DNA from: Rhodocyclaceae bacterium
GTDB taxonomy: Bacteria; Pseudomonadota; Gammaproteobacteria; Burkholderiales; Rhodocyclaceae
NCBI GenBank assembly: GCA_013791905.1
Contig: VMSX01000011.1
Coordinates: 372,001 to 436,000, forward strand
DNA length: 64,000 nt
Direction: 5' to 3'
The number at the start of each line of letters is the position of its first letter. Positions within the stretch are counted from its first letter, which is position 1. Positions 15,946 to 61,482 of the stretch are shown here, piece by piece. The translations under genes were made by a program, and so were the position numbers. The notes beneath the pieces are model-generated. The model saw nothing but the letters and a program-made list of their open reading frames with translations. It was not told the DNA's origin and did no database searches.

Positions 15946-16022
15946 ACCCCGAAAACGCCGCTGCGCGTCGTTCTCCCCTCAAGGGGCCAAGAAACACTTG
16001 GGGCGGCCCGGCGTGTTTCTTG
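15946..16022 (+). repeat. R1 element, short type, after pyrC
   Basis: A hairpin CCCCT-CA-AGGGG (15976-15986) is followed by the constant core TTGGGGCGGCCCGGC (15998-16012) between arms CAAGAAACAC and GTGTTTCTTG, a perfect 10-bp stem. The arms differ from those of other copies but are complementary to each other. It lies in the same direction as pyrC and ends about 20 nt before the next start codon. Confidence 0.9.
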
Positions 16023-16041
16023 TGAGCTTGGAGAAATTGTG

Positions 16042-16458
16042 ATGAAACTGCGCTCTCTGTTGCTACCTTTGTTGGTCGCGCCGCTGCTGGCCGGCTGCGA
16101 GATCGAACCGGCGGCCTATCTGATCGACGGCGGCAACCATTCCTTGACCGTGGAGCGCAAAAAGGCCTATTTCTGGAGCACTGGCTGGGAACTTGACTTG
16201 GTTGTGACACGCTATCCCGACTGTCAACGCCGCTATCCCCTGAAAAAAGCCGGCGAAAAGGTGCGGGTCGATCTCTACCGGGTCGAACCCGGCGCGTTCA
16301 TCCTTAATCAGGGCAAACACTGGTACGTCGCGGAAACCCGGGATTGCCGTTTCCAGCAATTCAAGGAAGAGCCGGACGAGCCCGGTGAATACATTGGATC
16401 ATTCCGTCCCAAGGACGGCGAATTGACTTTCGTCCCCAGCAAGAACGACAAAGAGTAG
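16042..16458 (+). CDS. Small lipoprotein of unknown function
   Basis: A 138-aa predicted lipoprotein: signal peptide MKLRSLLLPLLVAPLLAGC with lipobox LAGC. The mature part has three cysteines (ligand Cys, YPDCQRRYP, ETRDCRFQQ) and an aromatic-rich beta-type sequence. I do not recognise a characterised family. GGAG stands 8 nt before the ATG. It sits between an R1 element and the rnpB promoter. Confidence 0.75.
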   Translation: MKLRSLLLPLLVAPLLAGCEIEPAAYLIDGGNHSLTVERKKAYFWSTGWELDLVVTRYPDCQRRYPLKKAGEKVRVDLYRVEPGAFILNQGKHWYVAETRDCRFQQFKEEPDEPGEYIGSFRPKDGELTFVPSKNDKE

Positions 16459-16469
16459 CCAAGAAATCG

Positions 16470-16498
16470 GTCGCTACCGCGGCGCAAACAACTACAAT
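16470..16498 (+). promoter_or_regulatory. Candidate rnpB promoter
   Basis: A TACAAT -10 box at 16493-16498 with a poor -35 region (GTCGCT, 16470-16475) would start transcription 6-8 nt later, at the expected 5' end of RNase P RNA. Confidence 0.45.
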
Positions 16499-16500
16499 CC

Positions 16501-16970
16501 GTAGCGGAAGTCCGCCAGGCAGCCGCGGCACGGCAACGTGTCGAGGAAAGTCCGGGCCCCATAGAGCAGGTTGCCGGCTAACGGCCGGGCGCCGTGAGGC
16601 GACAGACAGTGCAACAGAAAGATACCGCCGATGGCCGCCCCGACTTTGACGCCGCAAGGCGGCAAAGTCTCGCTCTTGAGTGAGCAGGGGCGGATCAGGC
16701 AAGGGTGAAATGGTGGCCCGCCGCAAGGCGGGCCGACGGTGCGCAAGCAGCGTCGGGGTAAGAGCCCACCGCGGACGTGGTAACACGGACGGCATGGCAA
16801 ACCTCATCCGGGGCAAGGCCAAATAGGGGAGCATTGACGTTGCTCGCGTCGCTCCCGGGTAGGCTGCTAATGACTATCGGCGACGATAGTCGACGAGGCC
16901 GTCAGCAATGGCGGCCCCAGAGGAATGGCTGCCCACGACAGAACCCGGCTTATCGGCGGACTTCCACCCT
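16501..16970 (+). ncRNA. rnpB: RNase P RNA (bacterial type A)
   Basis: Catalytic RNA that matures tRNA 5' ends. Universally conserved blocks are visible: GAGGAAAGTCCGGGC (P4/CR-I) near 16542, ACAGTGCAACAGAAAGATAC near 16604 and CGACAGAACCCGGCTTATCG near 16935. The 5' GGAAGTCCGCC pairs with 3' GGCGGACTTCC to close P1. At about 465 nt it is longer than the 377-nt E. coli RNA, with extra sequence in the P12 and P18/J15-18 regions. It is followed within 10 nt by an R1 element and then by the mraZ promoter region, a location common in betaproteobacteria. Confidence 0.95.
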
Positions 16971-16978
16971 ATTCAAGG

Positions 16979-17125
16979 CCCACCCTCCCCCAGCCCCTCC
17001 CTCTCGGGAGGGGTGACTGTTGCTCGCTTTGCTCGTTTGTTACGGGGAGCTCCCGTTCGTACTTGGGCGCGGATTGCGGCTGGCGCCGCGTGTCGTCTCG
17101 CCTTGGGGCGGCCCGGCGGCGAGAC
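16979..17125 (+). repeat. R1 element (full type) after rnpB
   Basis: All five R1 modules are visible in order. M1 is a pyrimidine-rich CCCACCCTCCCC lead and a CCCTC/GGGAGGGG hairpin. M2 is GGTGACTGTTGCTCGCTTTG. M3 is the palindrome ACGGGGAGCTCCCGT. M4 is GCGGATTGCGG with the self-complementary GGCGCC. M5 is the core TTGGGGCGGCCCGGC (17103-17117) between arms GTCTCGCC and GGCGAGAC. It starts about 9 nt after the mature 3' end of RNase P RNA. Confidence 0.92.
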
Positions 17126-17346
17126 TACTGCGGTGGGCTTATCTCCCCTTTCCCCTCACGGGAAAGTGGCGGGGGTGACACATCCCACTCTTTCCTGCCC
17201 CACCCTCTCTCGCTCAACGACAAACCTCATACATCACATTCGAAGTCGCTTTCCATCGGTTGATTTTTAAGGAAAACAATATAATGCACCTTATCCAAAG
17301 TCAGACCTAAGTCATTGTCTCGCCTCAAAAAATCTCATTTATTGCC
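17126..17346 (+). other. rnpB-mraZ spacer with candidate upstream promoter
   Basis: Downstream of the R1 core is another C-rich hairpin-like stretch (17145-17200, CCCCTCACGGGAAAG...), then AT-rich DNA. A consensus TATAAT at 17280-17285 lies behind a weak GGTTGA -35, giving a possible second mraZ promoter. No gene is seen in this part. Confidence 0.35.
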
Positions 17347-17375
17347 TTGACGTTGCCAATTTGGTGGATTAAAGT
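17347..17375 (+). promoter_or_regulatory. mraZ (dcw) promoter
   Basis: TTGACG (17347-17352), a 17-nt spacer and TAAAGT (17370-17375) form a good sigma-70 promoter. The -10 box touches the first MraZ operator box, so bound MraZ would block it. Confidence 0.7.
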
Positions 17376-17399
17376 GGGGACTAGTGGGAATTAGTGGGG
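17375..17399 (+). promoter_or_regulatory. MraZ operator: three TGGG boxes
   Basis: TGGG occurs at 17375, 17385 and 17395, exactly 10 bp apart, matching the known MraZ site of TGGG-type direct repeats spaced by one helical turn. This predicts autorepression of mraZ and of the whole dcw operon. Confidence 0.85.
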
Positions 17400-17442
17400 G
17401 AACTGCTTAATTCAGTGACCCCCTTAACGAGGCGGGAGCAAA

Positions 17443-17892
17443 ATGTTCCAAGGGGCGGCGCAACTCAATCTGGATGTGAAGGGTCGACTGGCGATCCCGG
17501 CACGGCATCGCGACGCGCTGGCCGCGGCGGGCGGTGGCCGGCTGGTGCTGACCGCCCATCCGCATCGCTGCCTGCTGCTCTATCCCGAGCCCGCTTGGGA
17601 ACCGATCCGCGACAAGATTCTGGCCGCGCCGAGTTTCGATCCCCGCTCCGCTGCCGCCAAGCGCGTACTGGTGGGCAATGCCCGCGCCGAAGAGACCGAC
17701 AGTGTCGGTCGCATTCTGATTGCACCCGAACTGCGCGATTACGCCGGCTTCGAAAAGCAGGTGTGGCTGGTCGGCATGGGCTCACATTTCGAAATATGGA
17801 GCGATGCCGGTTGGCGTCGTCAGCATGAAACCGCCTTCGATGCTCTGGCGAGCGATGTACCGCCGCCAGGGTTCGAGGGTATGTCTTTGTGA
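17443..17892 (+). CDS. mraZ: Transcriptional regulator MraZ
   Basis: First gene of the division/cell-wall cluster. It binds TGGG repeats upstream of itself. At 149 aa it has two tandem AbrB-like units: residues about 5-50 (FQGAAQLNLDVKGRLAIPAR) and about 75-125 (RVLVGNARAEETDSVGRILI). The ribosome-binding site GGGAG precedes the ATG. The rsmH start follows its stop codon directly. Confidence 0.96.
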   Translation: MFQGAAQLNLDVKGRLAIPARHRDALAAAGGGRLVLTAHPHRCLLLYPEPAWEPIRDKILAAPSFDPRSAAAKRVLVGNARAEETDSVGRILIAPELRDYAGFEKQVWLVGMGSHFEIWSDAGWRRQHETAFDALASDVPPPGFEGMSL

Positions 17893-18852
17893 TTGCGCGC
17901 TGTGAGCGCCACCTCTCCCGCAGCTCATCTGCCGGTGCTGCTCACCGAAGCCGTATCTGCGCTTGCAGTGAAGCCGTCCGGCATCTATGTGGATGCGACT
18001 TTCGGGCGCGGCGGCCACAGCCTGGCAATTCTGGAAAAACTGGATTCGGCCGGACGACTGCTCGCGCTGGATCGCGATCCAGCGGCAATTGCTGCCGGGA
18101 TGAACATCGCCGACACGCGTTTTACTTTGGTTCATGCCGCTTTCAGCCAACTGGACGAAGTGCTGACAGCGCAGGGCATCGCCCAGGTCGATGGAATTTT
18201 GCTGGACGTGGGCGTGTCGTCGCCGCAGTTGGACGACCCGTCACGGGGTATGAGTTTTCGTTTCGATGCGCCGCTCGACATGCGCATGGACACGACGCAA
18301 GGGGAAACCGCGGCGGACTGGTTGGCGCGGGCAGAACAACGTGAAATCGAGGAGGTGATACGTGACTATGGCGAAGAACGGTTTGCTCATGCGCTTGCAA
18401 AGGCGATTGTTGCTGCTCGGAGCGAGCAGCGTATTTCATCCACAGGACAGCTTGCCACGCTCGTGGCGGCGGTCGTCCGGACGCGCGAGCCAGGCCAGCA
18501 CCCGGCGACGCGCACCTTCCAGGCTCTACGGATTCACGTCAATCGGGAGCTTGAGGAGCTGTCGCTGACCCTGCCGCAGGCGCTCGGCCGCTTGCAGCCG
18601 GGCGGCCGGTTGGTCGTGATCAGTTTTCATTCCCTCGAAGATCGCATCGTCAAGCGTTTTATGCGTGATGCGGCCCAGCCGCCGCAACCGCCGAAAGGGG
18701 TGCCAATCCGTGCCGTCGATCTGCCCGCGCCGGTGATGCAACTGATCGGCAAGCCGGTCAAAGCCGGTGCCGCCGAGGTGGCGACCAACCCGCGCGCGCG
18801 CAGCGCGGTGCTGCGGGTGGCGGAGAAACTGGTACCGGCATGCTCAGATTGA
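17893..18852 (+). CDS. rsmH: 16S rRNA (cytosine(1402)-N4)-methyltransferase
   Basis: Methylates N4 of C1402, the same nucleotide that RsmI modifies. 319 aa: [10 protein letters not shown], the SAM motif [31 protein letters not shown] and the C-terminal [16 protein letters not shown]. The start is uncertain: TTG at 17893 abuts the mraZ stop, and GTG at 17902 ([11 protein letters not shown]) is in frame; both imply translational coupling. It overlaps ftsL by 13 nt. Confidence 0.95.
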
Positions 18853-19100
18853 ACCTCATCCTGCTGGCAGCCGTGTTGATCAGCGCACTTGCTGACGTCT
18901 CGATCAACCACCGCGCCCGCAAGCTCGTCACCTCATACGAGCGCGAACAGGAACGCATGCGGGCGCTGGAAGTCGAATGGGGACAACTACAGCTTGAACA
19001 AAGCACCTGGGCCACCCATGCGCGCATCGAAGAGATTGCGCGCCAGCGGCTCGGGATGCATACCCCGCGCACCAACCAAATCATTACGGCGAATCCATGA
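18840..19100 (+). CDS. ftsL: Cell division protein FtsL
   Basis: Small bitopic divisome protein that works with FtsB and FtsQ. 86 aa: transmembrane helix at residues about 2-20 ([20 protein letters not shown]), then a coiled coil ([20 protein letters not shown]). It starts inside the end of rsmH. An R1 element separates it from ftsI, whereas these genes usually lie close together. Confidence 0.92.
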
Positions 19101-19105
19101 GTATG

Positions 19106-19215
19106 GCCCCCCACGCTCGCAAAACAAGCTCGCTGCCCCCCATGAAATCACCCGAAGCGGTGACAGGGGGGCCTCATTTAGCAACTGAGTCGCCTTGGGG
19201 CGGCCCGGCGGCGGC
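19106..19215 (+). repeat. R1 element (second subtype) between ftsL and ftsI
   Basis: It begins with CCCCCCACGCTCGCAAAAC and GCTCGCTGCCCCCC, then a matching run of G (GGGGGG, 19165-19171). The core TTGGGGCGGCCCGGC at 19195-19209 ends six bases before the ftsI ATG. The arms (GTCGCC / GGCGGC) pair over six positions including one G-T. The same lead sequence recurs at the murE start. Confidence 0.88.
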
Positions 19216-20940
19216 ATGAAACTCAGCCGCAGCCCCCTGCTCGAAGAGCGCCTGCCGGCTTGGCGGGCGCATTTCGTCATGGGCTTGCTGTTGCTGGGCT
19301 TCGCGGCACTGCTGGCGCGCTCGTTCTACCTGCAGGGCGTCAACAAGGACTTCCTGATTGGCCAGGGTGAATCGCGCTATGAGCGGGTGCTTGAGATATC
19401 GGCGACACGCGGGCGCATTCTCGACCGGCATGGCGATGTGTTGGCCATGTCGACCCCGGTCAAGGCGGTCTGGGCCATCCCGGAAGATGCCAAGCTCACA
19501 CCCGCACAGGTGCGCCAGCTGGCCAGCCTGCTGGAAACCGACCCGCGCGAACTGTCCCGCAAACTGGCGGGGGAACGCGATTTCGTTTATCTCAAGCGTC
19601 AGATCGCCCCGGACGTGGCAGCGCAGATTGCCAATCTCAAGCTGCCTGGCGTGCATTTCAAGAATGAATTCCGCCGCTACTACCCCTCCGGCGAAGTCGC
19701 GGCCCACATGCTGGGCTTCACCGGCGTCGATGATGCCGGCCAGGAGGGCATCGAGCTGGCGATGAACAGCCAGCTGACCGGCAAGCCCGGCGGCCGGCGC
19801 GTCATCAAGGACCGGCGCGGGCAGATCGTCGAGGACGTCGAATCGATCAAGGCGCCGCAGGAAGGCAAGGACACCGTGCTCGCCCTCGACGCCAAGCTGC
19901 AGTATCTGGCGTACGTGCAGCTCAAGCAGGCGATCGCCCAGCACAAGGCCAAGGCTGGCGGCATTGTCATGCTCGATGCCAAGAGTGGCGAAGTGCTGGC
20001 GCTCGTCAATCTACCGACCTACAACCCGAACAACCGCACCCGCCTGTCGGGTGCGCAGCTCAGAAACCGTGCCTTCACCGACACCTTCGAACCCGGCTCG
20101 ACCTTCAAGTCGTTCACCGTCGCGCTGGCCTTGGACAAGGGCAACGTGCGCTTCGACACCCCGATCCAGACTGCGCCCGGCAGGCTCACCATCGGCTCGG
20201 CAACGATTTCCGACGCCCACCCGCATGGCATGTTGTCGGTCGCCCAAGTGATCCAGAAGTCCTCCAACGTCGGCGCCGCAAAGATGGCCCTGGCGATACC
20301 GGCCGAGGAAATGTGGCAGATGTTCGACAACTTGGGCTTCGGTCAGCCGCTCAAACTGGGCTTCCCGGGTGAAGCCGCCGGGCGCCTGCGTCCCCACAAG
20401 CGCTGGCGACCGATCGAGCAGGCGACCATGTCGTATGGCCATGGCATTTCGGTGACGCTGATCCAGCTGGCGCGCGCCTATCAGGCTTTTGCCCGCAACG
20501 GCGACCTGCTGCCGCTGTCGCTGACGCGCGTCGATGCGGCGCCGACCATGGGTATCCGCGTCTTCACCGAGCAGACGGCGCGCGAGATGCGCGCCATGCT
20601 CGAAATGGCCGTGATGCCGGGCGGCACGGCGCCCAAGGCACAAGTGCCGGGCTACCGCGTCGCCGGCAAGACCGGCACGGCCAACAAGCTGGAAGGCGGC
20701 AGCTACACCAACAAGTATGTTGCCTCGTTCGTCGGTTTCGCCCCCGTATCCGACCCGCGCCTGATCATCGCCGTGATGGTTGACGAGCCTTCGGCCGGCA
20801 AATATTACGGCGGCGAGGTGGCGGCACCGGTGTTTTCCGGCGTGATGTCCGGCGCCTTGCGCAGCCTTGGCGTCGCGCCCGATGCCCTCGAAAAACCGTT
20901 GCAGATGGCCACCATCCCGCCGGCCAAGGAGGAGATGTGA
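19216..20940 (+). CDS. ftsI: Peptidoglycan transpeptidase FtsI (PBP3)
   Basis: Septal class B penicillin-binding protein. 574 aa: N-terminal cytoplasmic stretch and one membrane helix (FVMGLLLLGFAALLARSFYL), a pedestal domain with SATRGRILDRHGDVLAMS, and a transpeptidase with SxxK as GSTFKSF, SxN as SSN and KTGTANK. The ATG at 19216 directly follows an R1 core, and no AGGAG-like site is visible apart from the G/C-rich repeat end. A TTG within the repeat (19195) is in frame and would add seven residues. Confidence 0.96.
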   Translation: MKLSRSPLLEERLPAWRAHFVMGLLLLGFAALLARSFYLQGVNKDFLIGQGESRYERVLEISATRGRILDRHGDVLAMSTPVKAVWAIPEDAKLTPAQVRQLASLLETDPRELSRKLAGERDFVYLKRQIAPDVAAQIANLKLPGVHFKNEFRRYYPSGEVAAHMLGFTGVDDAGQEGIELAMNSQLTGKPGGRRVIKDRRGQIVEDVESIKAPQEGKDTVLALDAKLQYLAYVQLKQAIAQHKAKAGGIVMLDAKSGEVLALVNLPTYNPNNRTRLSGAQLRNRAFTDTFEPGSTFKSFTVALALDKGNVRFDTPIQTAPGRLTIGSATISDAHPHGMLSVAQVIQKSSNVGAAKMALAIPAEEMWQMFDNLGFGQPLKLGFPGEAAGRLRPHKRWRPIEQATMSYGHGISVTLIQLARAYQAFARNGDLLPLSLTRVDAAPTMGIRVFTEQTAREMRAMLEMAVMPGGTAPKAQVPGYRVAGKTGTANKLEGGSYTNKYVASFVGFAPVSDPRLIIAVMVDEPSAGKYYGGEVAAPVFSGVMSGALRSLGVAPDALEKPLQMATIPPAKEEM

Positions 20941-20942
20941 GC

Positions 20943-22574
20943 ATGGCGGCGGCATGGATGCCCCCCCACGCTCGCAAAACCAGCTCGCTGCCCCCCACAG
21001 GGGGGCGCATGCCGCCTTGGGGCGGCCCGGCGGCGGCGCTCCTCGACACCCTGCGCCAGCATGGCGTGAATGTCACGCAACTCACGCTCGATTCACGTCG
21101 CGTGCAGCCAGGCGATGTGTTCCTCGCCCTGCCCGGCGCGCATGCCGACGGCCGTGCCTTTATCACCGACGCGGTGGCACGGGGCGCGGCAGCGGTGATT
21201 TACGAGAAGGCAGGAGTAGAAGTGGAGAAATGCGCCGTCCCGCCAGTGCCGACTATTGCGGTAGACAACTTGGTGACGCTAACCGGCGAAATCGCCCATC
21301 TCGTCTACGGCCGGCCATCCGAGCAACTCTGGAGCGTCGGCGTCACCGGCACCAATGGCAAGACCTCGGTTTCGCAGTGGATCGCGCAGGCCATGACCGC
21401 GCTTGAGCGCAAATGCGGCGTGATCGGCACGCTGGGCAATGGTTTTCCGCCGCATCTGGATGAAAGCCCCAATACCACTCCCGATGCAGTGAGCTTGCAC
21501 GCAGCGCTGGCGCGCTTTGTCGAGCAGGGCGCGGCGGCCTGCGCGATGGAAGTGTCATCGATCGGCCTCGATCAGGGGCGGGTGAACGGCGTGCATTTCG
21601 ATGTTGCGGTACTGACCAATCTCACACGCGACCACCTCGAATACCACGGCACGATGGCCGCTTATGGCGCCGCCAAGGCCCGGCTGTTCGAAATGCCGGG
21701 ACTCGGCGTTGCCGTGCTGAATCTCGACGATCCCTTCGGCGTCGAACTCGCCGCCCGGCTTAGGGGCCGCCTCCCCACCATCGGATACACGCTGCAGGGC
21801 GGCAACGGGACGGATCGCGTACTGCATGCTGTAGATCTGGTCGAAACGGCAACAGGCATTGCCTTCACGCTTGATGGCGTGTCATTCACCGCACCACTGG
21901 TCGGCCGCTTCAATGCCTCGAACCTGCTGGCCGTGACGGGTGCTTTGCTGACCCGCGGCGAAACCCTCGCTGCCATCGCCGCCGTACTGCCCAGGCTGAG
22001 TTCGCCACCCGGACGCATGCAGACGCTGGGCGGCAACGCGCAACCACTGGTGGTGGTCGACTACGCCCATACACCGGATGCGCTGGAAAAGGTCCTGACC
22101 ACCCTGCGCGGCACAACGCTGGCACGCGGCGGCAAGCTGGTCTGTGTCTTCGGCTGCGGCGGCAACCGCGATGCCGGCAAGCGGCCGCTGATGGGCGCGA
22201 TCGCCGAGCGGCTGGCCGACCAGGTCATATTGACCAGCGACAACCCGCGCGGCGAAAACCCACAAGCCATCATCGCCGCCATCCGCGCCGGCATGCAGGA
22301 GGATATGGCGAGCGAAGCAGATCGCGCCGTGGCGATTCACCAGGCAGTGACGCAGGCTGCGGCACGCGACGTCATCCTGTTGGCCGGCAAGGGGCACGAA
22401 CCGTATCAGGAAATCGCCGGCGTGCGCCTGCCGTTTTCGGATAGTGAAATAGCACAAAGTGCGCTCGCGGGTCGACGCGAGCGTTCGGCGCTGGCGGAAT
22501 GGAATGCCCCGCATGGGGTACGGCGAGCAGCGGACCAATCAGATGATGCATCCGGAGAACAAGCGCAATGCTGA
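20943..22574 (+). CDS. murE: UDP-MurNAc-tripeptide synthetase MurE
   Basis: Adds meso-diaminopimelate to UDP-MurNAc-L-Ala-D-Glu. 543 aa: ATP site GTNGKTSVSQWI, lysine-carbamate and central-domain motifs (VTNLTRDHLEYHGTM), and DNPR in TSDNPRGENP, which selects meso-DAP. AAGGAGGA lies 8 nt before ATG 20943; GTG 20937 is too close. Two repeat-derived parts make it longer than the usual 490-510 aa: the N-terminus MPPHARKTSSLPPTGGRMPP, encoded by an R1 element, and CAVPPVPTIAV, encoded by R2. The last codons overlap murF. Confidence 0.95.
   Translation: MAAAWMPPHARKTSSLPPTGGRMPPWGGPAAALLDTLRQHGVNVTQLTLDSRRVQPGDVFLALPGAHADGRAFITDAVARGAAAVIYEKAGVEVEKCAVPPVPTIAVDNLVTLTGEIAHLVYGRPSEQLWSVGVTGTNGKTSVSQWIAQAMTALERKCGVIGTLGNGFPPHLDESPNTTPDAVSLHAALARFVEQGAAACAMEVSSIGLDQGRVNGVHFDVAVLTNLTRDHLEYHGTMAAYGAAKARLFEMPGLGVAVLNLDDPFGVELAARLRGRLPTIGYTLQGGNGTDRVLHAVDLVETATGIAFTLDGVSFTAPLVGRFNASNLLAVTGALLTRGETLAAIAAVLPRLSSPPGRMQTLGGNAQPLVVVDYAHTPDALEKVLTTLRGTTLARGGKLVCVFGCGGNRDAGKRPLMGAIAERLADQVILTSDNPRGENPQAIIAAIRAGMQEDMASEADRAVAIHQAVTQAAARDVILLAGKGHEPYQEIAGVRLPFSDSEIAQSALAGRRERSALAEWNAPHGVRRAADQSDDASGEQAQC
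20955..21038 (+). repeat. R1 element (second subtype) forming the murE N-terminus
   Basis: CCCCCCCACGCTCGCAAAAC, GCTCGCTGCCCCCC, ACA and GGGGGG form a C6/G6 hairpin. The core TTGGGGCGGCCCGGC (21017-21031) follows between arms GCCGCC and GGCGGC. murE translates it in frame as MPPHARKTSSLPPTGG, then RMPPWGGPAAA. It closely matches the copy before ftsI. Confidence 0.88.
21234..21257 (-). repeat. R2 element inside murE
   Basis: An inverse R2 unit (GCCGTCCCGCCAGT then GCCGACTATT) is read as AVPPVPTIA, immediately before the conserved AVDNLVTLTGEIAH segment of the MurE N-terminal domain. It occupies a position where relatives have a short loop. Confidence 0.7.
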
Positions 22575-28780: not shown

Positions 28781-28929
28781 AGGCCCGCCCTCCCCCAACC
28801 CCTCCCTCACGGGAGAGGTGACTGTTGCTCGCTGCGCTCGAATGTCACGGGGTGCTTCGTGGGGGCTTCGGTGCAGGTTGCGCCTGGCGGCGCGTGTCGC
28901 TTTTCCTTGGGGCGGCCCGGCGGAAAAGC
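28781..28929 (+). repeat. R1 element (full type) between murG and murC
   Basis: Starts GGCCCGCCCTCCCCC 3-5 nt after the murG stop, then CCCTCACGGGAGAGG, GGTGACTGTTGCTCGCTGCG and TTGCGCCTGGCGGCGC. The core TTGGGGCGGCCCGGC is at 28907-28921 between arms GCTTTTCC and GGAAAAGC (8 bp, perfect). The arms share no stem sequence with the rnpB copy, yet pair fully. It lies inside the dcw operon. Confidence 0.92.
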
Positions 28930-34353: not shown

Positions 34354-35544
34354 ATGTTTGAAATCATAGATAGAGACCCTAACGCCACCATTATTAAGGT
34401 GATCGGTGTCGGTGGCGCCGGCGGCAATGCCGTCGAACACATGATCCGCGAAGGCGTAGGCGGCGTGGAATTCATCTGCTGCAATACCGACGCCCAGGCA
34501 CTCAAGAACTCCTCGGCCGGCACCAAACTGCAGCTCGGCCCCGGCTTGGGTGCGGGCGGCAAGCCGGAGCGCGCGCGCGAACACGCACAGAACGAACGCG
34601 AGAAGATCGCCGAGGCGCTCGCCGGCGCGCACATGGCCTTCATCACCGCCGGAATGGGCGGCGGCACCGGCACCGGTGCCGCGCCGGTCATCGCCGAAGT
34701 GGCGCGCGAACTGGGCATTCTCACGGTAGCCGTCGTCACCAAACCCTTCGAGTTCGAGGGGCGCCGCAATAAACTTGCCGAAGAAGGACTGGCCGAACTC
34801 GGCCTGCATGTCGATTCGCTGATCGTCGTCCTCAACGAAAAACTGATGGAAGTGCTCGGCGAGGAAGTCAGCATGCTCGACGCCTTCAAGTCGGCCGACA
34901 ACGTGCTGAAGAATGCCGTTGGCGGCATTGCCGAGATCATCAACGTGCCGGGTCTGGTGAACGTGGACTTTGAAGACGTGCGCACCGTGATGGGCGAGAT
35001 GGGCAAGGCCATGATGGGTTCGGCCGCCGCAGCGGGCGTCGATCGCGCCCGCCTGGCCGCCGAGTCCGCCGTTGCCAGCCCGTTGCTGGAAGGCATCGAA
35101 CTCTCCGGCGCACGCGGCGTGCTGGTGAATATCACCGCCAGCGGCTCACTCGGCCTCAAGGAATACAAGGAAGTGATGGCCACCATCCGCAACTACACCG
35201 CGCCCGACGCCACCGTAATTTGCGGCGCAGTGTTCGACGATGCGATGGAGGACCAGTTGCGCGTAACGGTCGTCGCGACGGGTCTCGGCTCGGCTGCGCT
35301 GGCACGGCGCAAACCGGAACTGAAAGCCTATGTCACCGAGGGGATCGGCCTGCGCACCGGTACCGACAACCTGCCGCTCGGCACCGGCATGTCGGCAGCC
35401 ACCGTTGGTACCTCGGGTAGCCTCGACCTGGAAGGCATGTTCGTCAGCAATCGCGGCAGCCGCGACAATCGTGCGCAAGCCATGTCCGATACCGGCATGG
35501 ACAAGTACGATATCCCCGCCTTTCTGCGTAAGCAGGCGGACTAA
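34354..35544 (+). CDS. ftsZ: Cell division GTPase FtsZ
   Basis: Tubulin homologue that forms the Z-ring. 396 aa: IKVIGVGGAGGNAVEHM, the tubulin signature GGGTGTGAAPVIAE, T7 loop NVDFEDVRTVM, a linker, and the C-terminal peptide DKYDIPAFLRKQAD that binds FtsA and ZipA. It is the last gene of the cluster. The usual lpxC does not follow; instead an R1 element and the convergent rsmA do. Confidence 0.98.
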   Translation: MFEIIDRDPNATIIKVIGVGGAGGNAVEHMIREGVGGVEFICCNTDAQALKNSSAGTKLQLGPGLGAGGKPERAREHAQNEREKIAEALAGAHMAFITAGMGGGTGTGAAPVIAEVARELGILTVAVVTKPFEFEGRRNKLAEEGLAELGLHVDSLIVVLNEKLMEVLGEEVSMLDAFKSADNVLKNAVGGIAEIINVPGLVNVDFEDVRTVMGEMGKAMMGSAAAAGVDRARLAAESAVASPLLEGIELSGARGVLVNITASGSLGLKEYKEVMATIRNYTAPDATVICGAVFDDAMEDQLRVTVVATGLGSAALARRKPELKAYVTEGIGLRTGTDNLPLGTGMSAATVGTSGSLDLEGMFVSNRGSRDNRAQAMSDTGMDKYDIPAFLRKQAD

Positions 35545-35582: not shown

Positions 35583-35726
35583 ACGCCCGCCCCCCTTCGC
35601 CCCCCTCGCGGGTGGTTCCAAATGGCTCGCTGGCGCTCGCCTATCACGGGGCGCTCTTTCCAGTGCGGGTGCGGATTGCGGCTGCGCCGCGTGCCGCGTT
35701 TGCTTGGGGCGGCCCGGCGCAAACGC
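35583..35726 (+). repeat. R1 element (full type) after ftsZ
   Basis: GCCCGCCCCCCTTCGCC with CCCCTCGCGGG, TGGCTCGCTGGCGCTCGCC, GCGGATTGCGGCTGCGCCGC, then the core TTGGGGCGGCCCGGC (35704-35718) between arms GCGTTTGC and GCAAACGC, 8 bp perfect. It lies in the ftsZ direction, 39 nt after its stop, in a convergent intergenic region. Confidence 0.92.
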
Positions 35727-46489: not shown

Positions 46490-46545
46490 AACCTTGCCGC
46501 CGGGCCGCCCCAAGGCAAGATGAAACGCGGTGCAGCCGCAACCGG
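46490..46545 (-). repeat. R1 element (partial) between ubiH and dusB
   Basis: The inverse core GCCGGGCCGCCCCAA (46498-46512) lies between arms CTTGCC and GGCAAG, followed by GCGGTGCAGCCGCAACCGGG (M4). M1-M3 are not recognisable. This is the clearest copy lying against the direction of its upstream gene. Confidence 0.8.
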
Positions 46546-51274: not shown

Positions 51275-52201
51275 ATGGACACCACTACCATTCGCGCCTA
51301 CTTAACCGAACTTCAGGAACGCATCGTTACGGAACTGGAAACTTTCGACGGCATGCCGTTTCGTCGCGATGAGTGGGCGCGTCCCCAAGGTGGTGGTGGC
51401 ATTTCCAGGCTGATCGAAGGCGGCAACTTCTTTGAACGTGGCGGCGTGAATTTCTCGCACGTCACCGGCGATGCCCTGCCCGCCAGCGCTACCGCGCACC
51501 GCCCCGAACTGGCCGGCCGACACTGGGAAGCGCTGGGCGTTTCACTGGTGCTGCACCCGCAGAACCCGTACTGTCCGACCACGCACCTGAATGTGCGCAG
51601 CTTCGTTGCCACCCGCGCTGGCGAGGAACCGGTCTGGTGGTTTGGCGGCGGCATGGACCTCACGCCATATTATGGAGTCATCGAAGATGCGGTGCATTTC
51701 CACCAGACCTGCAAGGACGCCCTGGCGCCTTTCGGTACCGACACCCACGCCCGCTACAAGCAATGGTGCGACGAATATTTCTTCCTCAAGCACCGCAATG
51801 AACCGCGTGGCATCGGCGGCATTTTTTTCGATGATCTGAACCAAGGCGGCCCGGGCGGCGATGCTTCCACTCCCTGGTCATTTGACCGGTGTTTCGCCCT
51901 GACGCAAAGCGTCGGCGATCATTTCACGGCGGCCTACCTGCCGATCTGCGCGCGCCGCCGTGGCATCCCCTACGGCGAACGCGAACGCGACTTCCAGGCC
52001 TACCGGCGCGGCCGTTATGTAGAATTCAACCTGGTGTGGGATCGCGGCACGCTCTTCGGCCTGCAATCCGGCGGGCGCACCGAAGCGATCCTCATGTCGC
52101 TGCCGCCCATCGTCAAATGGCGCTACGACTGGCACCCGGAACCCGACAGCGCCGAAGACCGCCTCTACACCGACTTCCTGCCACCACGCACCTGGGTGTA
52201 G
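51275..52201 (+). CDS. hemF: Oxygen-dependent coproporphyrinogen III oxidase
   Basis: Decarboxylates coproporphyrinogen III to protoporphyrinogen IX using O2. 308 aa: [67 protein letters not shown] and [25 protein letters not shown] precedes the ATG. An R1 element begins 2-4 nt after the stop. Confidence 0.97.
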
Positions 52202-52202: not shown

Positions 52203-52347
52203 TCACCCGCCCCCCTTCGCCCCCCTCACGGGGGGTTCTCAACTGCTCGCTACGCTCGTCTATTACGGGGCGCATTATTTTTACTGAGGAGCGGGTTGCG
52301 GCTTTCGCCGCGTGCCGTCTCGCCTTGGGGCGGCCCGGCGGCGAGAC
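52203..52347 (+). repeat. R1 element (full type) after hemF
   Basis: CCCGCCCCCCTTCGCCCCCC, TCACGGGGGG, CTGCTCGCTACGCTCG, GCGGGTTGCGGCTTTCGCCG, then the core TTGGGGCGGCCCGGC (52325-52339) between GTCTCGCC and GGCGAGAC (8 bp). It lies in the hemF direction and faces an inverted copy at 52416. Confidence 0.92.
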
Positions 52348-52371
52348 TGCTGGGGTAGGATTGCGGATTTG

Positions 52372-52395: not shown

Positions 52396-52415
52396 TTAAA
52401 TCCACATCTGTCGCA

Positions 52416-52562
52416 GCGTTTGCGCCGGGCCGCCCCAATCAAACGCGGCACGCGGCGAAAGCCGCAACCCGCACCCAAGCTTGAACGGGGGCGCCCCGTT
52501 ACTGACGAGCGCAGCGAGCCACAGTCACCTCCCCGAGAGGGGAGGATGGGAGGGGTGGGCCT
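52416..52562 (-). repeat. R1 element (full type) after hemY
   Basis: Minus-strand copy: inverse core GCCGGGCCGCCCCAA (52424-52438) between arms GCGTTTGC and TCAAACGC (7 of 8 pairs), then CGGCGAAAGCCGCAACCCGC, GGGGGCGCCCC, CGAGCGCAGCGAGCC and CTCCCCGAGAGGGGAGG. hemY stops at the TGA within this element (52525-52527), so its last residues come from M1. Confidence 0.9.
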
Positions 52563-53754: not shown

Positions 53755-53760
53755 GATGGC

Positions 53761-55041: not shown

Positions 55042-55048
55042 CAATGCC

Positions 55049-55837: not shown

Positions 55838-56770
55838 TCAACTTCCCAGCGCAGCGAGGATTTCGTTCGCGCCCTGTGCGCGCAAATCGGCGACCAGCGC
55901 CAGTCCCAGCGCTTCGGGATCGGCAGCCGGCCCGGCATGTTCGGCACGCGCAATACGGGTGCCGTCGGGAGTGGCCACCAGTCCGCGCAACCGCAGCTGC
56001 CCGGCAGAAAATTCCGCGTAAGCGCCCAGCGGCACTTCGCAGCTGCCGCCCAGCGCCCTTGATACGGCCCGTTCGGCGCGCACGCAGGCCGCTGTAGCGG
56101 CATCGTTCAAAGGCTGCATCCAGGCAGCTACCTCGGGCCGGTCGGCCAAAGCCTCGATACCCAGCGCGCCCTGACCGGCGGACGGCAACGAAGCCTCGGC
56201 AGACAGCACCGCGCGGATGCGCTCACCGAGGCCGAGGCGGGTCAGGCCGGCCGCCGCCAGAATGATGGCGTCGTACTGACCTTCATCCAGCTTGCGCAGC
56301 CGCGTATCCAGATTGCCGCGCAGGCTCGTCACGGCCAGATAGGGGTAATTGGCATGCAGTTGCGCCTCGCGGCGCAGGCTGGAGGTGCCGACCACCGCGC
56401 CCGGTGGCAGGTCTTCGAGGCAGGCATACTTGTTCGAGACAAAGGCATCGAGCGGCACTTCACGCGGGCCGATGGCCACCAGCGCGAACTCTGGCGCCAG
56501 TTGCATCGGCACGTCTTTCATCGAGTGCACGGCGATGTCGGCGCTCTTGTCGAACAGTGCCGTTTCCAGTTCCTTGACGAACAAACCCTTGCCGCCAACC
56601 TTCGCCAGCGGGCGGTCGAGAATCTGGTCGCCGCGCGTCGTCATGCCCAGCAGTTCGACGCGGCACGCTGGGTATAATCCTTGCAAAAGACCACGTACAT
56701 GTTCCGCCTGCCAGAGGGCAAGACGCGATTCACGGGTGGCGATAACGATACGCTCGGGATGTGGAATCAC
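55838..56770 (-). CDS. hemC: Hydroxymethylbilane synthase
   Basis: Polymerises four porphobilinogens. 310 aa if started at GTG 56770 ([20 protein letters not shown]); an in-frame TTG at 56818 would overlap ppc and seems unlikely. Motifs: [42 protein letters not shown] and [11 protein letters not shown]. The dipyrromethane-cofactor Cys is in [14 protein letters not shown]. Divergent from ppc with only about 30 nt between starts. The KVGGKGLF is a family motif, not an R2 element. Confidence 0.95.
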
Positions 56771-56799
56771 TGGGCAATCAACCGAAATGAGAGGCAAAC

Positions 56800-59661
56800 A
56801 TGAAGAAGAAGGCCGCAACTGCTGCTGACTCAGCCGCAGCGGCTAACGCACGGCAACCCGCTCCGCCAGCCGCGCGTACCGTCACCACGGATTCTAACAT
56901 CCAGGACAGCATCGCCAGCGACAAGGATCTGCCGCTGCTTGATGACATTCGCCTGCTCGGGCGCCTGCTCGGCGATGTCATTCGCGATCAGGAAGGCGAG
57001 GCCGTCTTTGCTGTCGTCGAACGTATCCGCCTGCTGTCGATCCGCTTCCATCGCGACGACGACACGGCGGCGCGCGACGAGCTGACCGACCTGTTGAACA
57101 ACCTGTCGCGCGAACAAACCAATCTGGTGGTACGCGCCTTCAGCTATTTCTCGCATCTCGCCAACATCGCCGAGGACCAGCACCACCTCCGGCGCGCCCG
57201 CGCGCATGCGCTGGCCGGCGCGCAGCCACGACCGGGCACCTTCGCCCATGCGGTGGCACGCGCCGACGAACTGGGGATCGATCGCCAGGCCATCGCCGAC
57301 TTCTTCAAGCACGCCAAGATCAATCCGGTACTGACTGCACACCCCACCGAGGTGCAAAGAAAGAGCATCCTTGATCGCCAGTGGCAGATCGCGCGCCTGC
57401 TCGATGCACGTGACCGCAGTCCCCTGACGCCAGACGAACAGGCCGTGAATGAAGAGTCCCTGCGCCGCGCCGTGCTGACCCTCTGGCAGACCAGAATGCT
57501 GCGCACGCTGAAGCTTTCGGTGATGGACGAGGTGAAGAATGCCCTCTCCTACTACGACACCACGTTCCTGCGTGAATTGCCGCGCCTGCACAACAGCATC
57601 GAAGACGCCGTTGCCAACCTGACCACGCCAGATGCGCAACTGCCGGCCATTCTCCATCCGGGTTCCTGGATCGGCGGTGACCGCGACGGCAATCCATTCG
57701 TCACCGCCGACATCCTCAGGACTGCGCTGAACGCCCAAAGCCGCAAAGCCTTCAGCTTTTACCTCGACCAGGCCCACCGCCTGGGCAGCGAGTTGTCCGC
57801 TTCCGAATTGCTGGTGCGCATCTCGGACGAAATGCGCGAATTGGCGGCAAGCTCACCGGATCGAAATCCGCACCGCGACGACGAACCCTATCGCCGCGCC
57901 ATCGCCGGCATCTATGCACGGCTGGCGGCCACCGCACGCGAACTCGATCACATGGAGGCCCTGCGCCATGCCGTGGCCGAAGCGCCGCCCTATGCCGACA
58001 GCGCGGCCTTCGCCGCCGACCTCGACATCCTCGACAATTCTCTGAAGAGCAATGGCACGGCGCTGCTGGCCCGCGGCCGGCTGCGCCGCTTGCGCCGCGC
58101 CGTCGAACTGTTCGGCTTCCACCTCGCGGCGCTCGACCTGCGGCAGAACTCTGAAGTGCATGAACGCACGGTGCATGAACTCTTCGAGACTGCTCGCCCG
58201 GGCACGGAATACCTACAGCGCAACGAGGCAGGCCGCATCGCCCTGCTGCTCGCCGAACTCGCCACGCCACGCCTGCTCGCCTCGCCGTATTGCACTTATT
58301 CCGAGGAAACCACCGCCGAGCTGGACATCTTCCATGCCGCGCGTGACATGCACGCCCTGTACGGCAAGGCGGTGATCCAGAACGTCATCATCTCGATGAA
58401 CAAGAGCGTTTCCGACATCCTCGAAGTGGCGCTGCTGCTCAAGGAAGCCGGCCTGCTACGGCCGCGCGCAGGAGAGCTTGACGTCAACATCGTGCCGCTG
58501 TTCGAAACCATCGGCGACCTCACCAGTTGTGGCGCAATCATGCAGCAACTGTTCAGCCTGCCGGCCTATCGGCGTCTACTCGATAGCCGCGGCGACATGC
58601 AGGAAGTCATGCTCGGCTATTCCGACAGCAACAAGGATGGCGGTTTCTTGATGTCGAGCTGGTCGCTGTATCGCGCCGAAGTCGAGCTGGTGGAGGTTTT
58701 CAAACAGCACGGCCTGCGGCTGCGCCTGTTCCATGGTCGCGGCGGCACCGTCGGGCGCGGCGGCGGCCCCAGTTATCAGGCCATCCTGGCGCAACCCGCC
58801 GGTGCGGTGCAAGGCGCCATCCGCATCACCGAACAGGGCGAAGTCATCGCCTCGAAATACGCCAACCCGGAACTCGGCCGGCGCAACCTCGAAGTACTGC
58901 TGGCAGCCACATTGGAGGCCACCCTGCTGCCGCACGCCCATGATGACCCGCAGCCAGACTGCCTCACCGCTATGGCCGAGCTGGCCGAGCATTCCTTCCG
59001 TGCCTATCGCAATCTGGTTTACGAAACACCGGAATTTGAGCGCTATTTCTGGGAATCAACCGTCATCAGCGAGATTGCCCGCCTCAATATCGGCAGCCGC
59101 CCCGCTTCGCGCAAGAAGACCACCGCCATCGAAGACCTGCGCGCGATTCCCTGGGTGTTCTCGTGGTCGCAGTGCCGCCTGATGCTGCCCGGCTGGTATG
59201 GCTTCGGCTCTGCTTATCAGGCCTTCATGGCAGAGCGCGGCCCGGCGGGCCTTGTGCTCCTGCAACGCATGTACAGCGACTGGGGGTTCTTCCGCACCCT
59301 GCTGTCGAACATGGACATGGTGCTGGCCAAGACCGACATTGCGCTGGCCAAGCGCTATGCCGGACTGGTGAAAGACCCGGCGCTGCGCGACGCGATCTTT
59401 CCGCGCCTCAAGGCGGAATGGCGCGCCACCATCGATGCGCTGCTGGCCATCACCGGCCAGACCGAACTACTCGAAGGCAATCCGCTGCTGCAACGTTCGA
59501 TGCGCAATCGCTATCCCTACCTCGATCCGCTCAACCACCTGCAGATCGAGCTGCTGCGCCGTCATCGTTCCGGTCCGCCCTGGAGCGACGACGAACGCGT
59601 GCAAAGCGGCATCCACCTGACCATCAACGGGGTATCGGCGGGGTTGCGCAACAGCGGCTGA
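56800..59661 (+). CDS. ppc: Phosphoenolpyruvate carboxylase
   Basis: Carboxylates PEP to oxaloacetate to replenish the TCA cycle. 953 aa: [18 protein letters not shown] (catalytic His), [50 protein letters not shown] and C-terminal [18 protein letters not shown], ending in NSG where many homologues end NTG. A purine-rich site (GAGAGG) precedes the ATG. R1 begins within 3 nt of the stop. Confidence 0.97.
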
Positions 59662-59663
59662 GT

Positions 59664-59812
59664 GGCCCGCCCCCTCCCAGCCTCCCCCTCGCGGGGGAGG
59701 TGACTGTGGCTCGCTTTGCTCGTTTGTTATGGGGCGCCCCCGTTCAAGCTTGAGTGCGGTTTGCGGCTTGCGCCGCGTGCCGTCTCGCCTTGGGGCGGCC
59801 CGGCGGCGAGAC
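59664..59812 (+). repeat. R1 element (full type) after ppc
   Basis: GGCCCGCCCCCTCCCAGCC, CCCCCTCGCGGGGG, GGTGACTGTGGCTCGCTTTG, GGGGCGCCCCC, TTGCGGCTTGCGCCGCG, core TTGGGGCGGCCCGGC (59790-59804) between GTCTCGCC and GGCGAGAC. It starts within 3 nt of the ppc stop. A further hairpin-rich stretch (TCTCCCCTCGCCCCTTGCGG, 59829-59865) follows. Confidence 0.93.
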
Positions 59813-59877
59813 TGCTGGGGTTGCCTTTCTCCCCTCGCCCCTTGCGGGAGAAGGGCCGGGGGCAAGGCTGTGTAGTG

Positions 59878-59901
59878 AAAGTCGGCGCTGGTGGAACGGC
59901 G
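59878..59901 (+). repeat. R2 element (short form) after ppc
   Basis: AAAGTCGGCG then CTGGTGGAACGGCG, two changes from the unit, non-coding. It follows an R1 copy by about 65 bp, the same pairing of families as at 52.3 kb. Confidence 0.85.
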
Positions 59902-60035
59902 TCTGCCTTGTCACAACTGCAAGACTTTGTAACTACTGCGGTTTACTGTATGTCGGCCATTCGGGACTTGCGTTACTTGTGCTGACGACGTTTCATCTGA
60001 CACAAATCCCATTCCCCAATTGAAAGGACTGCGCC

Positions 60036-60830
60036 GTGAAGGGCAAACTATTACTGACTGCACTGGCTGCCGCCTCGGTACTGCTGGGCGCCTGCACGAC
60101 CTATCCGGTACAGGATCCCTATTACGACCAACCCGTCGTGCGCGTGGGGCCACCGCCACCGCAATACGAATATTACGGATCGCCGCCAAGCGTCGGCTAT
60201 GTCTGGATTTCCGGTTACTGGAACTGGGGCGGCGTGCGCTACATCTGGGTACCGGGCCGCTGGGATGCACCACGTCCGGGCCATTACTGGGTACCGCATA
60301 GATGGGAACGTCAGGGCGACCATTGGCGGCAACATGGCGGCCGCTGGGAGCAGGATTCGCGGAGCCGGCAGGAATACCGCCCCGCCCCGCCGGTCGTTCG
60401 CCCGCCAGTGCATAGCCACCCCCAAGGCCAGATCATCCAGCGCTCCGAACCTGTGATAATTCAGCGCGTCGATCCACCCGGTCCAGGCATCCACCGCCCG
60501 GAACCGGCTGGCCGGGATTATCGTCGCCATGAGTCCGGCCCGACCATGCAACGCCCCGAACCCGGCCCGGCTTACCAGCCGCCACAGCAGCGCCCCCCGG
60601 CACAGGAACGCAGTGTTGCGCCCAGCCCCGGAAATGAACGCGAAAGCCGGCGGCCCCCAGCCGAAGGTAGCGAAGTGCGCTCTGAGCGCAGAAGCGAACC
60701 GCGCATCGAACGCGACTCACGCCCCCCACCAGTGCGAAATGACGGCCCACGCTCGGAACGCGATGATCGGCAACGCTCGAAGAAGGATGGCAACGACGGC
60801 CAGCGCCGGCGCGGCCCCGACGATGAATAG
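60036..60830 (+). CDS. YXWGXW-repeat lipoprotein
   Basis: A 264-aa predicted lipoprotein (lipobox LLGAC). Repeated YVWISGYWNWGG, YIWVPGRWDAP and YWVPHRWERQGDHWRQHGG units are typical of the YXWGXW family, whose function is unknown. The C-terminal half is low-complexity, rich in Pro, Arg, Glu and Ser (RPPAEGSEVRSERRSEPRIE). GTG start with AAGGA 8 nt upstream. Confidence 0.85.
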   Translation: MKGKLLLTALAAASVLLGACTTYPVQDPYYDQPVVRVGPPPPQYEYYGSPPSVGYVWISGYWNWGGVRYIWVPGRWDAPRPGHYWVPHRWERQGDHWRQHGGRWEQDSRSRQEYRPAPPVVRPPVHSHPQGQIIQRSEPVIIQRVDPPGPGIHRPEPAGRDYRRHESGPTMQRPEPGPAYQPPQQRPPAQERSVAPSPGNERESRRPPAEGSEVRSERRSEPRIERDSRPPPVRNDGPRSERDDRQRSKKDGNDGQRRRGPDDE

Positions 60831-60874
60831 CCTGGCGCCTTGATCCAATTCAGGCCAAGCCGCCGGCCGGGGTG

Positions 60875-60896
60875 TTGCTAACCCCGGCTGCGCGGA
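60875..60896 (+). other. GC hairpin between lipoprotein and DsrC-like gene
   Basis: CCGGGGT and ACCCCGG are separated by about 7 nt, with no T-run after it. It may terminate weakly or stabilise the upstream message. Confidence 0.35.
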
Positions 60897-60909
60897 TGGT
60901 TAAGTCGAC

Positions 60910-60937
60910 TTGATTACTCGGGTATTTCTGCTATCAA
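60910..60937 (+). promoter_or_regulatory. Candidate promoter of the DsrC-like gene
   Basis: TTGATT (60910-60915), a 16-nt spacer and TATCAA (60932-60937), ending 30 nt before the start codon. Confidence 0.35.
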
Positions 60938-60967
60938 TGGAACATGCACCCGATAGAGGAGAAAATC

Positions 60968-61333
60968 ATGCTCGACATCAATAAATATGTGGACAACCAA
61001 CGACTGGCAGAAGTCGACCCTGACGGCAATCTGTTCGAACTTGAACATTGGTCTCCGCTAGTGGCCGCACGACTGGCCAAGGCGGAGGGTCTGGTTCTCG
61101 AAGATGAACATTGGCTGGTGATTTTCCATTTGCGCCATCACTTCCGCGACGTGGGCAATGCCGCGAACGCGCGGGAGTTGCTGCGCGAACTGGAGCACAA
61201 ATTGTTCGGTCATGTCGATCGGCGTCGCCTGTACGAACTGTTTCCACATGGTCCGATCGCGCAGGCCAGTCGTATCGCCGGCTTGCCACTGCCGCCGGGA
61301 ACGCTCGATCCTTCCTTCGGTAGCAGTCATTAG
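60968..61333 (+). CDS. DsrC/TusE-family protein lacking cysteine
   Basis: A 121-aa protein of the DsrC/TusE fold: GNLFELEHWSPLVAARLAKA, LEDEHWLVIFHLRHHFRD and the C-terminal PHGPIAQASRIAGLPLPPGT. In DsrC and TusE this arm carries a conserved Cys (GLPKPTGC-type). Here it continues TLDPSFGSSH and the whole protein has no Cys, so it cannot carry a persulfide. It fits the Cys-free regulatory-type subgroup of the family. ATG 60968 has AGGAG 7 nt upstream. R1 begins at the base after its stop. Confidence 0.85.
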   Translation: MLDINKYVDNQRLAEVDPDGNLFELEHWSPLVAARLAKAEGLVLEDEHWLVIFHLRHHFRDVGNAANARELLRELEHKLFGHVDRRRLYELFPHGPIAQASRIAGLPLPPGTLDPSFGSSH

Positions 61334-61482
61334 GGCCCGCCCCTCCCTGCCTTCCCCCTCGCGGGGGAGGTGACTGTTGCTCGCTGTGCTCGTCTGTTAC
61401 GGGGATCCCCCGTTCGGGATTGGGCGCGGTTTGCGGCTGGCGCCGTGTGCCACCTTGCCTTGGGGCGGCCCGGCGGCAAGGC
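61334..61482 (+). repeat. R1 element (full type) after the DsrC-like gene
   Basis: GGGCCCGCCCCTCCCTGCC, CCCCCTCGCGGGGG, GGTGACTGTTGCTCGCTGTG, ACGGGGATCCCCCGT, TTGCGGCTGGCGCCG, core TTGGGGCGGCCCGGC (61460-61474) between ACCTTGCC and GGCAAGGC (7 of 8 pairs). It begins immediately after the stop codon. Confidence 0.93.

Follow-up and report, generated by a model that had tools for sequence, protein, structure and literature searches.

A 64,000-nucleotide stretch of a Rhodocyclaceae bacterium genome (GenBank assembly GCA_013791905.1, contig VMSX01000011.1, positions 372,001 to 436,000; hereafter the window) carries a dispersed repeat built around a constant 15-nt core, TTGGGGCGGCCCGGC, flanked by arms that pair with each other and change from copy to copy. 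On balance, we think it probable that these repeats are short, nonautonomous mobile elements resembling repetitive extragenic palindromes (REPs), that the loop of their shared hairpin is read by a putative common factor, and that they act as sense RNA at the ends of genes. The elements are mobile, and several different bodies end in the one tail. Moreover, the arms covary, the stem of two element classes (A and C) ends sharply, the copies have a preferred position and orientation with respect to genes, and the core has diverged little.

A Constant Loop on a Covarying Stem

The core occurs in the window in 11 exact copies, nine on the forward strand and two on the reverse strand (46499–46513 and 52424–52438), against a chance expectation of 0.76 with up to two mismatches allowed. 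A sequence-only reading of the window had listed the same 11 positions, all of which are exact copies once its coordinate 46498, one base off, is moved to 46499; the arms are also as it described, the GTCTCGCC/GGCGAGAC pair occurring three times. With G–T pairs counted, the stems of the forward copies measure, in order, 10, 8, 6, 7, 8, 8, 8, 8, and 7 pairs, and that of the reverse copy at 46499 measures 8. The reverse copy at 52424 has a mismatch beside the core, giving a stem of 0 when counted outward from the core, and its pairing resumes further out. Folded as DNA, the 31-nt hairpin forms a small stem of its own within the loop, in which TGGG pairs with CCCG, leaving a single base unpaired on one side and two on the opposite side; the hairpin folds better than shuffled sequences (z −2.46, 4/200 shuffles).

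The central claim of the sequence-only reading, covariation of the arms at the level of structure around an invariant core, proved highly significant. Of 164 distinct arm pairs, covariation was measured on the 110 whose elements could be assigned to a class, an assignment made from the body of the element and not from its arms. Of 880 cells, 87.4% are paired, vs. 51.9% in shuffles, with changes on both sides in 339 cells, and the covariation score (0.854 vs. 0.195 in shuffles) was reached in 0 of 500 shuffles. Pairing falls to at most 62.4% when the partner is slid by one to three columns, and it drops past position 8. The covariation also holds separately in the genome under study (G000), in its sister species (G298, with DNA ∼90% identical), for which the statistics rest on 82 copies, and in other genomes. 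Two of the five measures used, pairs with two-sided changes (57/500) and further pair types (487/500), do not rise above the shuffles, since the variety of types at every pair is already at saturation.

The 8-bp stem proposed in the same reading is a property of class A in the two sister species, where 54 of 81 distinct arm contexts pair at exactly 8 positions and none at more. It does not extend to class C, in which 14 of 29 pair for 10, or to class D, in which a stem of 8–9 is found in only 6 of 23. Stems of 8–9 are found in 11 of 22 cases in class B, which outside the sister species is more mixed, partly through shifted variants such as TTGC-core-GCGGC. The reading had also held that such compensatory change is not the product of simple copying. 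This is right as far as the covariation goes and too strong otherwise, since the elements do get copied, as their presence or absence at individual sites, their tandem units, and their inherited arm subfamilies attest: GTCTCGCC, GCGTTTGC, and GCCTTGCC account for 26, 18, and 15 of 93 class A copies, respectively. Class B has 64 distinct 5′ arms among 94 copies. Insertion of the core into pre-existing palindromes was considered as an origin of the arms and rejected: in the sampled stretches, none of 33 perfect arm palindromes was found without the core.

Different Bodies Ending in the Same Hairpin

Upstream of the full copies the sequence-only reading had seen further ordered palindromic modules. 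The modules are real, but they belong to at least four different bodies, sorted by eye and with simple patterns, that end in the same hairpin. These are CCCGCCCC..GGGGAGGTGAC..TTGCGGCTGGCGCCGC (A), CCCCCCACGCTCGC..GCTCGCTGCCCCCCACAGGGGGGC (B), CCCCCCCGAAAACGCCGC..CCCCCCAGGGGGC (C), and CCCCCCAGCCCCCTTC..GAAGGGGGTGAC.. (D). All four open with a C-run able to pair with a later G-run and close as arm-core-arm, over a total length of about 65–150 nt, and head-to-tail tandem units are found at loci L083, L084, and L089. Of 346 copies, 78 were left unclassed and excluded from the class tests, and 235 of the 268 classed copies, those with sufficient flank or a left end that could be recognized, were usable for the stop-codon test described below. 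In other genera (GTDB set), the commonest classed form is class B, with 60 of 80 classed copies.

In Comamonadaceae and relatives (L140, L150, L174, L188, L197, L226, and L246), a further body like CCTCCGCGCTTCGCGCTGCGGT precedes the hairpin, often beside GCTCAT, which resembles a start codon context when the opposite strand is read. In addition, the class A elements at L086:9257(−) and L096:12163(−) are interrupted between 5′ arm and core by a different palindromic repeat (TGTGCGGCAAAGCCGCATTCCGC..CTGCGGCCT); in these and all such locus identifiers, the number after the colon is the core position in the orientation read.

Distribution across Genomes

The genome under study (3.64 Mb) contains 175 exact copies of the core and none of the reversed pattern. 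Among 297 sampled genomes of the family the core is present in 150, the reversed control giving 0–2 matches per genome. The sister species G298 has 185 copies, and G299 and G303, which are 85% and 83% complete, have 78 and 103; the remaining 15 members of the genus that were searched have 0–14 each. No core was found in 11 genomes from other families of the order. A second sequence collection yielded at least 119 stretches with the core, which among the matches listed come mostly from Comamonadaceae, Rhodocyclaceae, and other Burkholderiales. Eight matches outside the betaproteobacteria (as judged from their titles) pair at just 1–4 of 8 arm positions, as would be expected of chance matches, and among the other loci listed, 63 of the 70 that were scorable pair at five or more. 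On plasmids, six partial matches of one class B copy were found, in Burkholderia, Azoarcus, Acidovorax, and Rhodoferax. Near-cores with paired arms add 29 copies with one mismatch and 7 with two to the 101 exact copies in the stretches taken from the genome itself.

Mobility and Empty Sites

Comparison of the sister species shows that the elements move. Of 101 copies in the genome under study, 28 have both flanks matched in the sampled G298 stretches, and 13 of these have no exact core there; conversely, 29 of 89 sister copies were placed by both flanks, 15 of them without an exact core in G000. Thus, 28 of 57 placed copies have no partner core. In six of these the partner is decayed or partly deleted (17103, L100:1439, L318:3771, L321:15382, L350:9673, and L335:10229), one is a difference in tandem units (L322:16038), and 21 look absent, some of these partner sequences being too different for the junction to be placed.

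Readable empty sites are those of the copies at ftsL/ftsI, L323:9984, L335:16426, L324:9898, L099:1753, L352:4291, L346:10206, and L322:11439. The inserted copies are bounded by direct repeats of (C)ATGA at ftsL/ftsI, GGCATGAA at L323:9984, ATGA at both L335:16426 and L099:1753, ATGAA at L324:9898, and 15 nt at L352:4291, and TATGAG borders a class C copy, L329:14465, at either end. By eye, the genes that follow L323:9984, L335:16426, and L099:1753 resemble murG, purD, and an amidase subunit gene. Among nontandem class B copies, direct repeats of at least 5 nt behind the 3′ arm occur in 24 of 89, vs. 13.9 in permutations (3/500), and this within-class permutation is conservative, since words that contain a start codon, such as ATGA, turn up in many of the flanks.

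Position and Orientation at Gene Ends

The position of the elements was scored by the presence, within 20 nt before their left end, of the stop codon of a co-oriented open reading frame (ORF) with at least 100 open codons, a test that is independent of gene calls; gene calls elsewhere in this work come from a simple ORF heuristic. For class A, such a stop was found before 56 of the 79 copies from the two sister species (36/53 and 20/26) and before 1 of 3 from elsewhere; for class B, across all groups, the figure is 47/85, for class D 14/27, and for class C 10/41. In two control windows of equal size further upstream, class A has 1/79 and 3/79, class B 6/85 and 3/85, class D 4/27 and 1/27, and class C 0/41 and 1/41. 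Intergenic points drawn at random, with random orientation, satisfy the test in 335 of 4,000 cases (8.4%), and a different dispersed repeat from this genome does so in 14 of 183 and 30 of 184 cases on its two strands. A convergent stop lies within 22 nt of the right end in 10 of 79 class A, 11 of 85 class B, 4 of 27 class D, and 5 of 41 class C copies.

For class A in the genome under study, the gap between stop and left end is 0–17 nt, with a mode of 3. In seven more class A copies of G000 the upstream ORF enters the element and stops inside it, six times at the TGA of GGTGAC(-like) sequence and once at TAA, so that the stop codon of the host ORF apparently comes from the element. Where class A copies lie in co-directional gaps, 19 are in sense and 6 in antisense orientation (p = 0.015), and the class occupies convergent and divergent gaps in a ratio of 20 to 3, against a background of 127 to 128. 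On the other side of the hairpin, the ATG of a long frame lies just to the right in 25 of 85 class B (control 9), 10 of 27 class D (control 3), and 10 of 41 class C copies (control 3). One copy in the window lies behind the RNase P RNA gene, and the adjacency is therefore to gene ends generally and not to stop codons alone.

Conservation of the Core

In 16 orthologous pairs of elements with bodies more than 80% alike, the core has changed at 3 of 240 positions and the bodies at 131 of 1,366, and the arms show 14 two-sided and 5 one-sided changes. A hand tally of the 12 pairs placed by both flanks gives 2 changes in 180 core positions, with six two-sided and four one-sided arm changes.

A Model for the Hairpin Family and Its Alternatives

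We infer from these features a recognizing factor, which would bind either RNA or folded single-stranded DNA, and an effect on the host gene. In the proposed mechanism, the constant loop would be the recognition site for a putative trans-acting factor, and a stem restricted in length and free in sequence, which need only pair, would present it. Sense copies sit at gene ends, those of class A typically 0–17 nt past the stop and many of classes B and D between a stop and the next start; there the hairpin would be transcribed and would probably act on translation termination or on mRNA 3′ ends. The sense orientation and the docking at gene ends argue for action at the level of RNA. Liang, Rudd and Deutscher are reported to have shown in 2015 that Escherichia coli REPs stall ribosomes when they lie no more than about 15 nt from a stop codon, and the present elements are like these in placing a sense hairpin directly past the stop, a likeness shown here for position alone. 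The attachment of several otherwise unrelated bodies to one hairpin suggests that one shared putative factor moves or uses them; the mover may be a transposase of another class than those considered below, a host enzyme, or an enzyme since lost. Of the three roles that the sequence-only reading had offered, a 3′-UTR (untranslated region) hairpin and a small nonautonomous mobile element both fit and are mutually compatible, and a recombination site found no positive support.

A single 15-nt loop closes different mobile elements across the Burkholderiales, and many of these elements directly follow a stop codon, which points to a putative new recognition factor. In addition, some genomes offer a hundred or more natural replicates for testing the effect of such stop-codon hairpins on gene output, and the same hundred-plus copies allow the movement of small elements to be studied outside the three enzyme families tested here. 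At the gathering score, RNase P is the only Rfam match in the window, the region 59600–59850 giving four weak matches (E 3.3–6.3). In the library searched, no paper matched the core word. The matches listed there for a 12-nt part of the core and for a class B word were unrelated (the latter judged by title), and among those listed for dispersed repeats, REP/RAYT, attC, start-codon miniature inverted-repeat transposable elements (MITEs), and REP/trans-translation, none describes the element.

Several points weigh against this model. Four of the 16 orthologous pairs rest on one flank only, and the conservation of the core is partly a matter of ascertainment, since badly mutated cores escape recognition; it could also stem from gene conversion between copies, and the arm changes at orthologous loci may represent replacement by another copy. 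Direct repeats of at least 5 nt do not exceed permutation in class C (3/36 vs. 4.1) or class D (8/27 vs. 7.2), and target duplications in these classes therefore rest on single sites. Class C is also a poor fit to the stop-codon rule. When two whole elements were folded locally as RNA, the result was no better than for shuffles (z −1.49 and −0.60). The share of G–U among imperfect cells is 26% in the sister species and 13% elsewhere, with 19% in the shuffles of either set, and the lack of clear enrichment speaks against simple selection on an RNA stem, which is therefore not the sole reading; a tRNA control, with three G–U pairs and one mismatch in 27 stems, is too small to be firm. A scarcity of G–U would fit something that sets both arms together, such as copying of the whole hairpin, template switching, or target writing. 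Finally, no mobilizing enzyme was found, although no systematic search for a long copy around an enzyme gene was made, and none of the three candidate families Y1_Tnp, RVT_1, and IntI tracks copy number.

The complementarity of the arms might instead be made at insertion and not selected, the 3′ arm of class B being target sequence and its 5′ arm an inverted copy of the target or the complement of a guide; if so, the covarying stem would be a record of the target and not of slow compensatory evolution. We give this idea a minor but real chance. The class B 3′ arm recurs in the left flank over at least 6 nt in 13 of 89 nontandem copies, vs. 4.5 in permutations (0/500), as part of a 13-nt direct repeat at L317 and of one of 15 nt at L352:4291, and the target GCCGACTTTG is native in the empty site of L346:10206. 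Likewise, the arms of L322:11439 match a local GGTGGC variant found in no other sampled copy of the two sister species, and the 5′ arms of class B are as diverse as noted above. However, the empty sites at ftsI, L335:16426, L324:9898, and L099:1753 lack the 3′ arm, which was therefore carried in, so that target writing is not a general rule. The arms of classes A and C are inherited subfamilies, recurrence in the left flank is 0 of 36 in C and 2 of 27 (vs. 1.4) in D, Shine–Dalgarno-like arms may match the ribosome sites native to the locus through shared function, and the permutation drew on many species of the GTDB set together. It is also conceivable, if improbable, that the strand before the loop is complementary to the insertion site, that insertion closes a hairpin between element and target, and that docking is thereby directed to gene ends (translation stops and stop/start overlaps), possibly at the level of RNA. 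Template switching during replication (quasipalindrome correction), which would keep the arms complementary without selection on the hairpin, would explain the two-sided arm changes at orthologous loci and the few G–U pairs, but it gives no account of the sharp end of pairing (8 bp in A, 10 in C), the constant loop, or the position rule, and we regard it as very unlikely.

Known systems offer other candidates. Pairs of short and long interspersed elements (SINEs and LINEs) share a 3′ tail stem-loop, and the present family likewise combines different bodies with one common 3′ hairpin. Bacterial SINE-like retroelements, with a tail hairpin read by one reverse transcriptase, would also account for left and right ends that are unlike, for direct repeats of variable length at single sites, and for sense orientation at gene ends. 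In contrast to such a pairing, RVT_1 does not track the copies, being absent from 7 of 17 high-copy genomes and found in 4 of 8 with few copies, and we consider this explanation rather unlikely. REPs, as presented in parts of PMC2817692, combine a GT(A/G)G head with a palindrome and flank RAYT genes. The present elements are like the REP and BIME sequences of those parts in being short, high-copy extragenic hairpins that differ between relatives, and unlike them in their constant loop, free stem, several bodies sharing one hairpin, and lack of a linked RAYT. A REP/REPIN family moved by a RAYT (Y1 HUH) transposase would be in keeping with the dispersed, high-copy extragenic hairpins, with inverted neighbors such as 52325/52424, and with two Y1 loci of G298 that have a one-mismatch (L366) and a two-mismatch core (L376) in their flanks. 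Y1_Tnp, however, is missing in 5 of 16 genomes with 13–185 copies and below the cut-off in one more, and it is present in 4 of 8 genomes with 0–5 copies. The exact core was found in 0 of 23 Y1 loci examined, with none near the single Y1 gene of G000 (L101), and no constant GT(A/G)G head was seen by eye beside the palindrome or arms, which together make a RAYT origin highly improbable.

As described in portions of PMC2727003, integron attC sites are folded single strands with poor conservation of stem sequence and with extrahelical bases, and their similarity lies in boundary R boxes. The present hairpins resemble them in their variable arms and unpaired bases and differ in that the conserved part is the loop, the outer arm bases vary (there are no R′/R′′ boundary boxes), and the copies are dispersed without cassette arrays. 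An IntI-type integrase is over the cut-off in 14 of 17 high-copy genomes, but also in 7 of 8 low-copy ones and not in three high-copy ones (21/25 overall), and thus does not track the copies; that the elements are attC-like recombination sites hardly seems credible. Ordinary intrinsic terminators with U-runs, the possibility that the sequence-only reading had set against its own proposal, would suit the location at gene 3′ ends. However, a T4 run follows the stem in only 10 of 101 copies of the genome and 6 of 82 sister copies, and many B and D copies lie inside operons ahead of the start codons counted above, so that we attach next to no weight to this explanation. As short, nonautonomous dispersed repeats the elements are like Correia and RUP sequences (as covered in parts of PMC2817692) and BOX (in parts of PMC3049150). 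Terminal inverted repeats of the MITE kind were not seen by eye, the C-run on the left differing from the core on the right; with regard to the other MITE characters, empty sites are present, and direct repeats exceed permutation in class B only.

Elements of the Window and Neighboring Repeats

The 11 copies in the window are set out in Table 1.

Table 1. Hairpin elements of the 64-kb window, with positions counted from its first nucleotide
Element	Position	Strand	Core	Arms (5′/3′)	Context
Class C	15943..16022	+	15998-16012	CAAGAAACAC/GTGTTTCTTG	C-rich left end, 1 nt past TGA closing ORF 14907-15941; absent in partner species
Class A	16979..17125	+	17103-17117	GTCTCGCC/GGCGAGAC	Starts 10 nt past RNase P RNA gene (16507-16968); decayed copy there in sister species
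Class B	19101..19215	+	19195-19209	GTCGCC/GGCGGC	Between ftsL and ftsI; ATGA flanks both sides; site empty in, e.g., L104 and L106
Class B	20961..21038	+	21017-21031	TGCCGCC/GGCGGCG	Real left end uncertain; in frame within start of Mur ligase ORF 20937-22574 (murE by gene order)
Class A	28784..28929	+	28907-28921	GCTTTTCC/GGAAAAGC	5 nt past ORF ending 28778
Class A	35586..35726	+	35704-35718	GCGTTTGC/GCAAACGC	41 nt past ftsZ (34354-35544); sequence differs at that place in sister species
Diverged class A-like hairpin	46491..46521	−	46499-46513	ATCTTGCC/GGCAAGGT	Left end not recognizable
Class A	52206..52347	+	52325-52339		4 nt past coproporphyrinogen oxidase ORF 51275-52201; absent in sister species
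Class A, inverted	52416..52559	−	52424-52438		Mismatch beside core; co-oriented ORF enters element and terminates at its TGA; absent in sister species
Class A	59666..59812	+	59790-59804		4 nt past PEP (phosphoenolpyruvate) carboxylase ORF 56800-59661
Class A	61336..61482	+	61460-61474	CCTTGCC/GGCAAGG	2 nt past DsrC-like ORF 60944-61333

The class B element within the Mur ligase ORF appears to be translated, and G298 has a copy at the same place. The class A element behind the RNase P RNA gene (16507-17125 for the two together) may affect formation of the 3′ end of that RNA.

Other repeats occur in the same genome. The one Y1 transposase gene found in it (L101, in G000:C25) is flanked by a short repeat of its own (GGGGTCAGACCACGGTTTTC) that has no relation to the core. 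Another dispersed repeat, with CCAGCGCCGACTTT (often AAAGTCGGCGCTGGCGGGACGGCG) in it, occurs at seven places in the window, for example between 52347 and 52416, and at 191 places in 1.64 Mb of the genome, and it adjoins many of the elements. The class B copies L075:4729, L261, and L326:11103 sit at variants of this dispersed repeat, with arms that match it.

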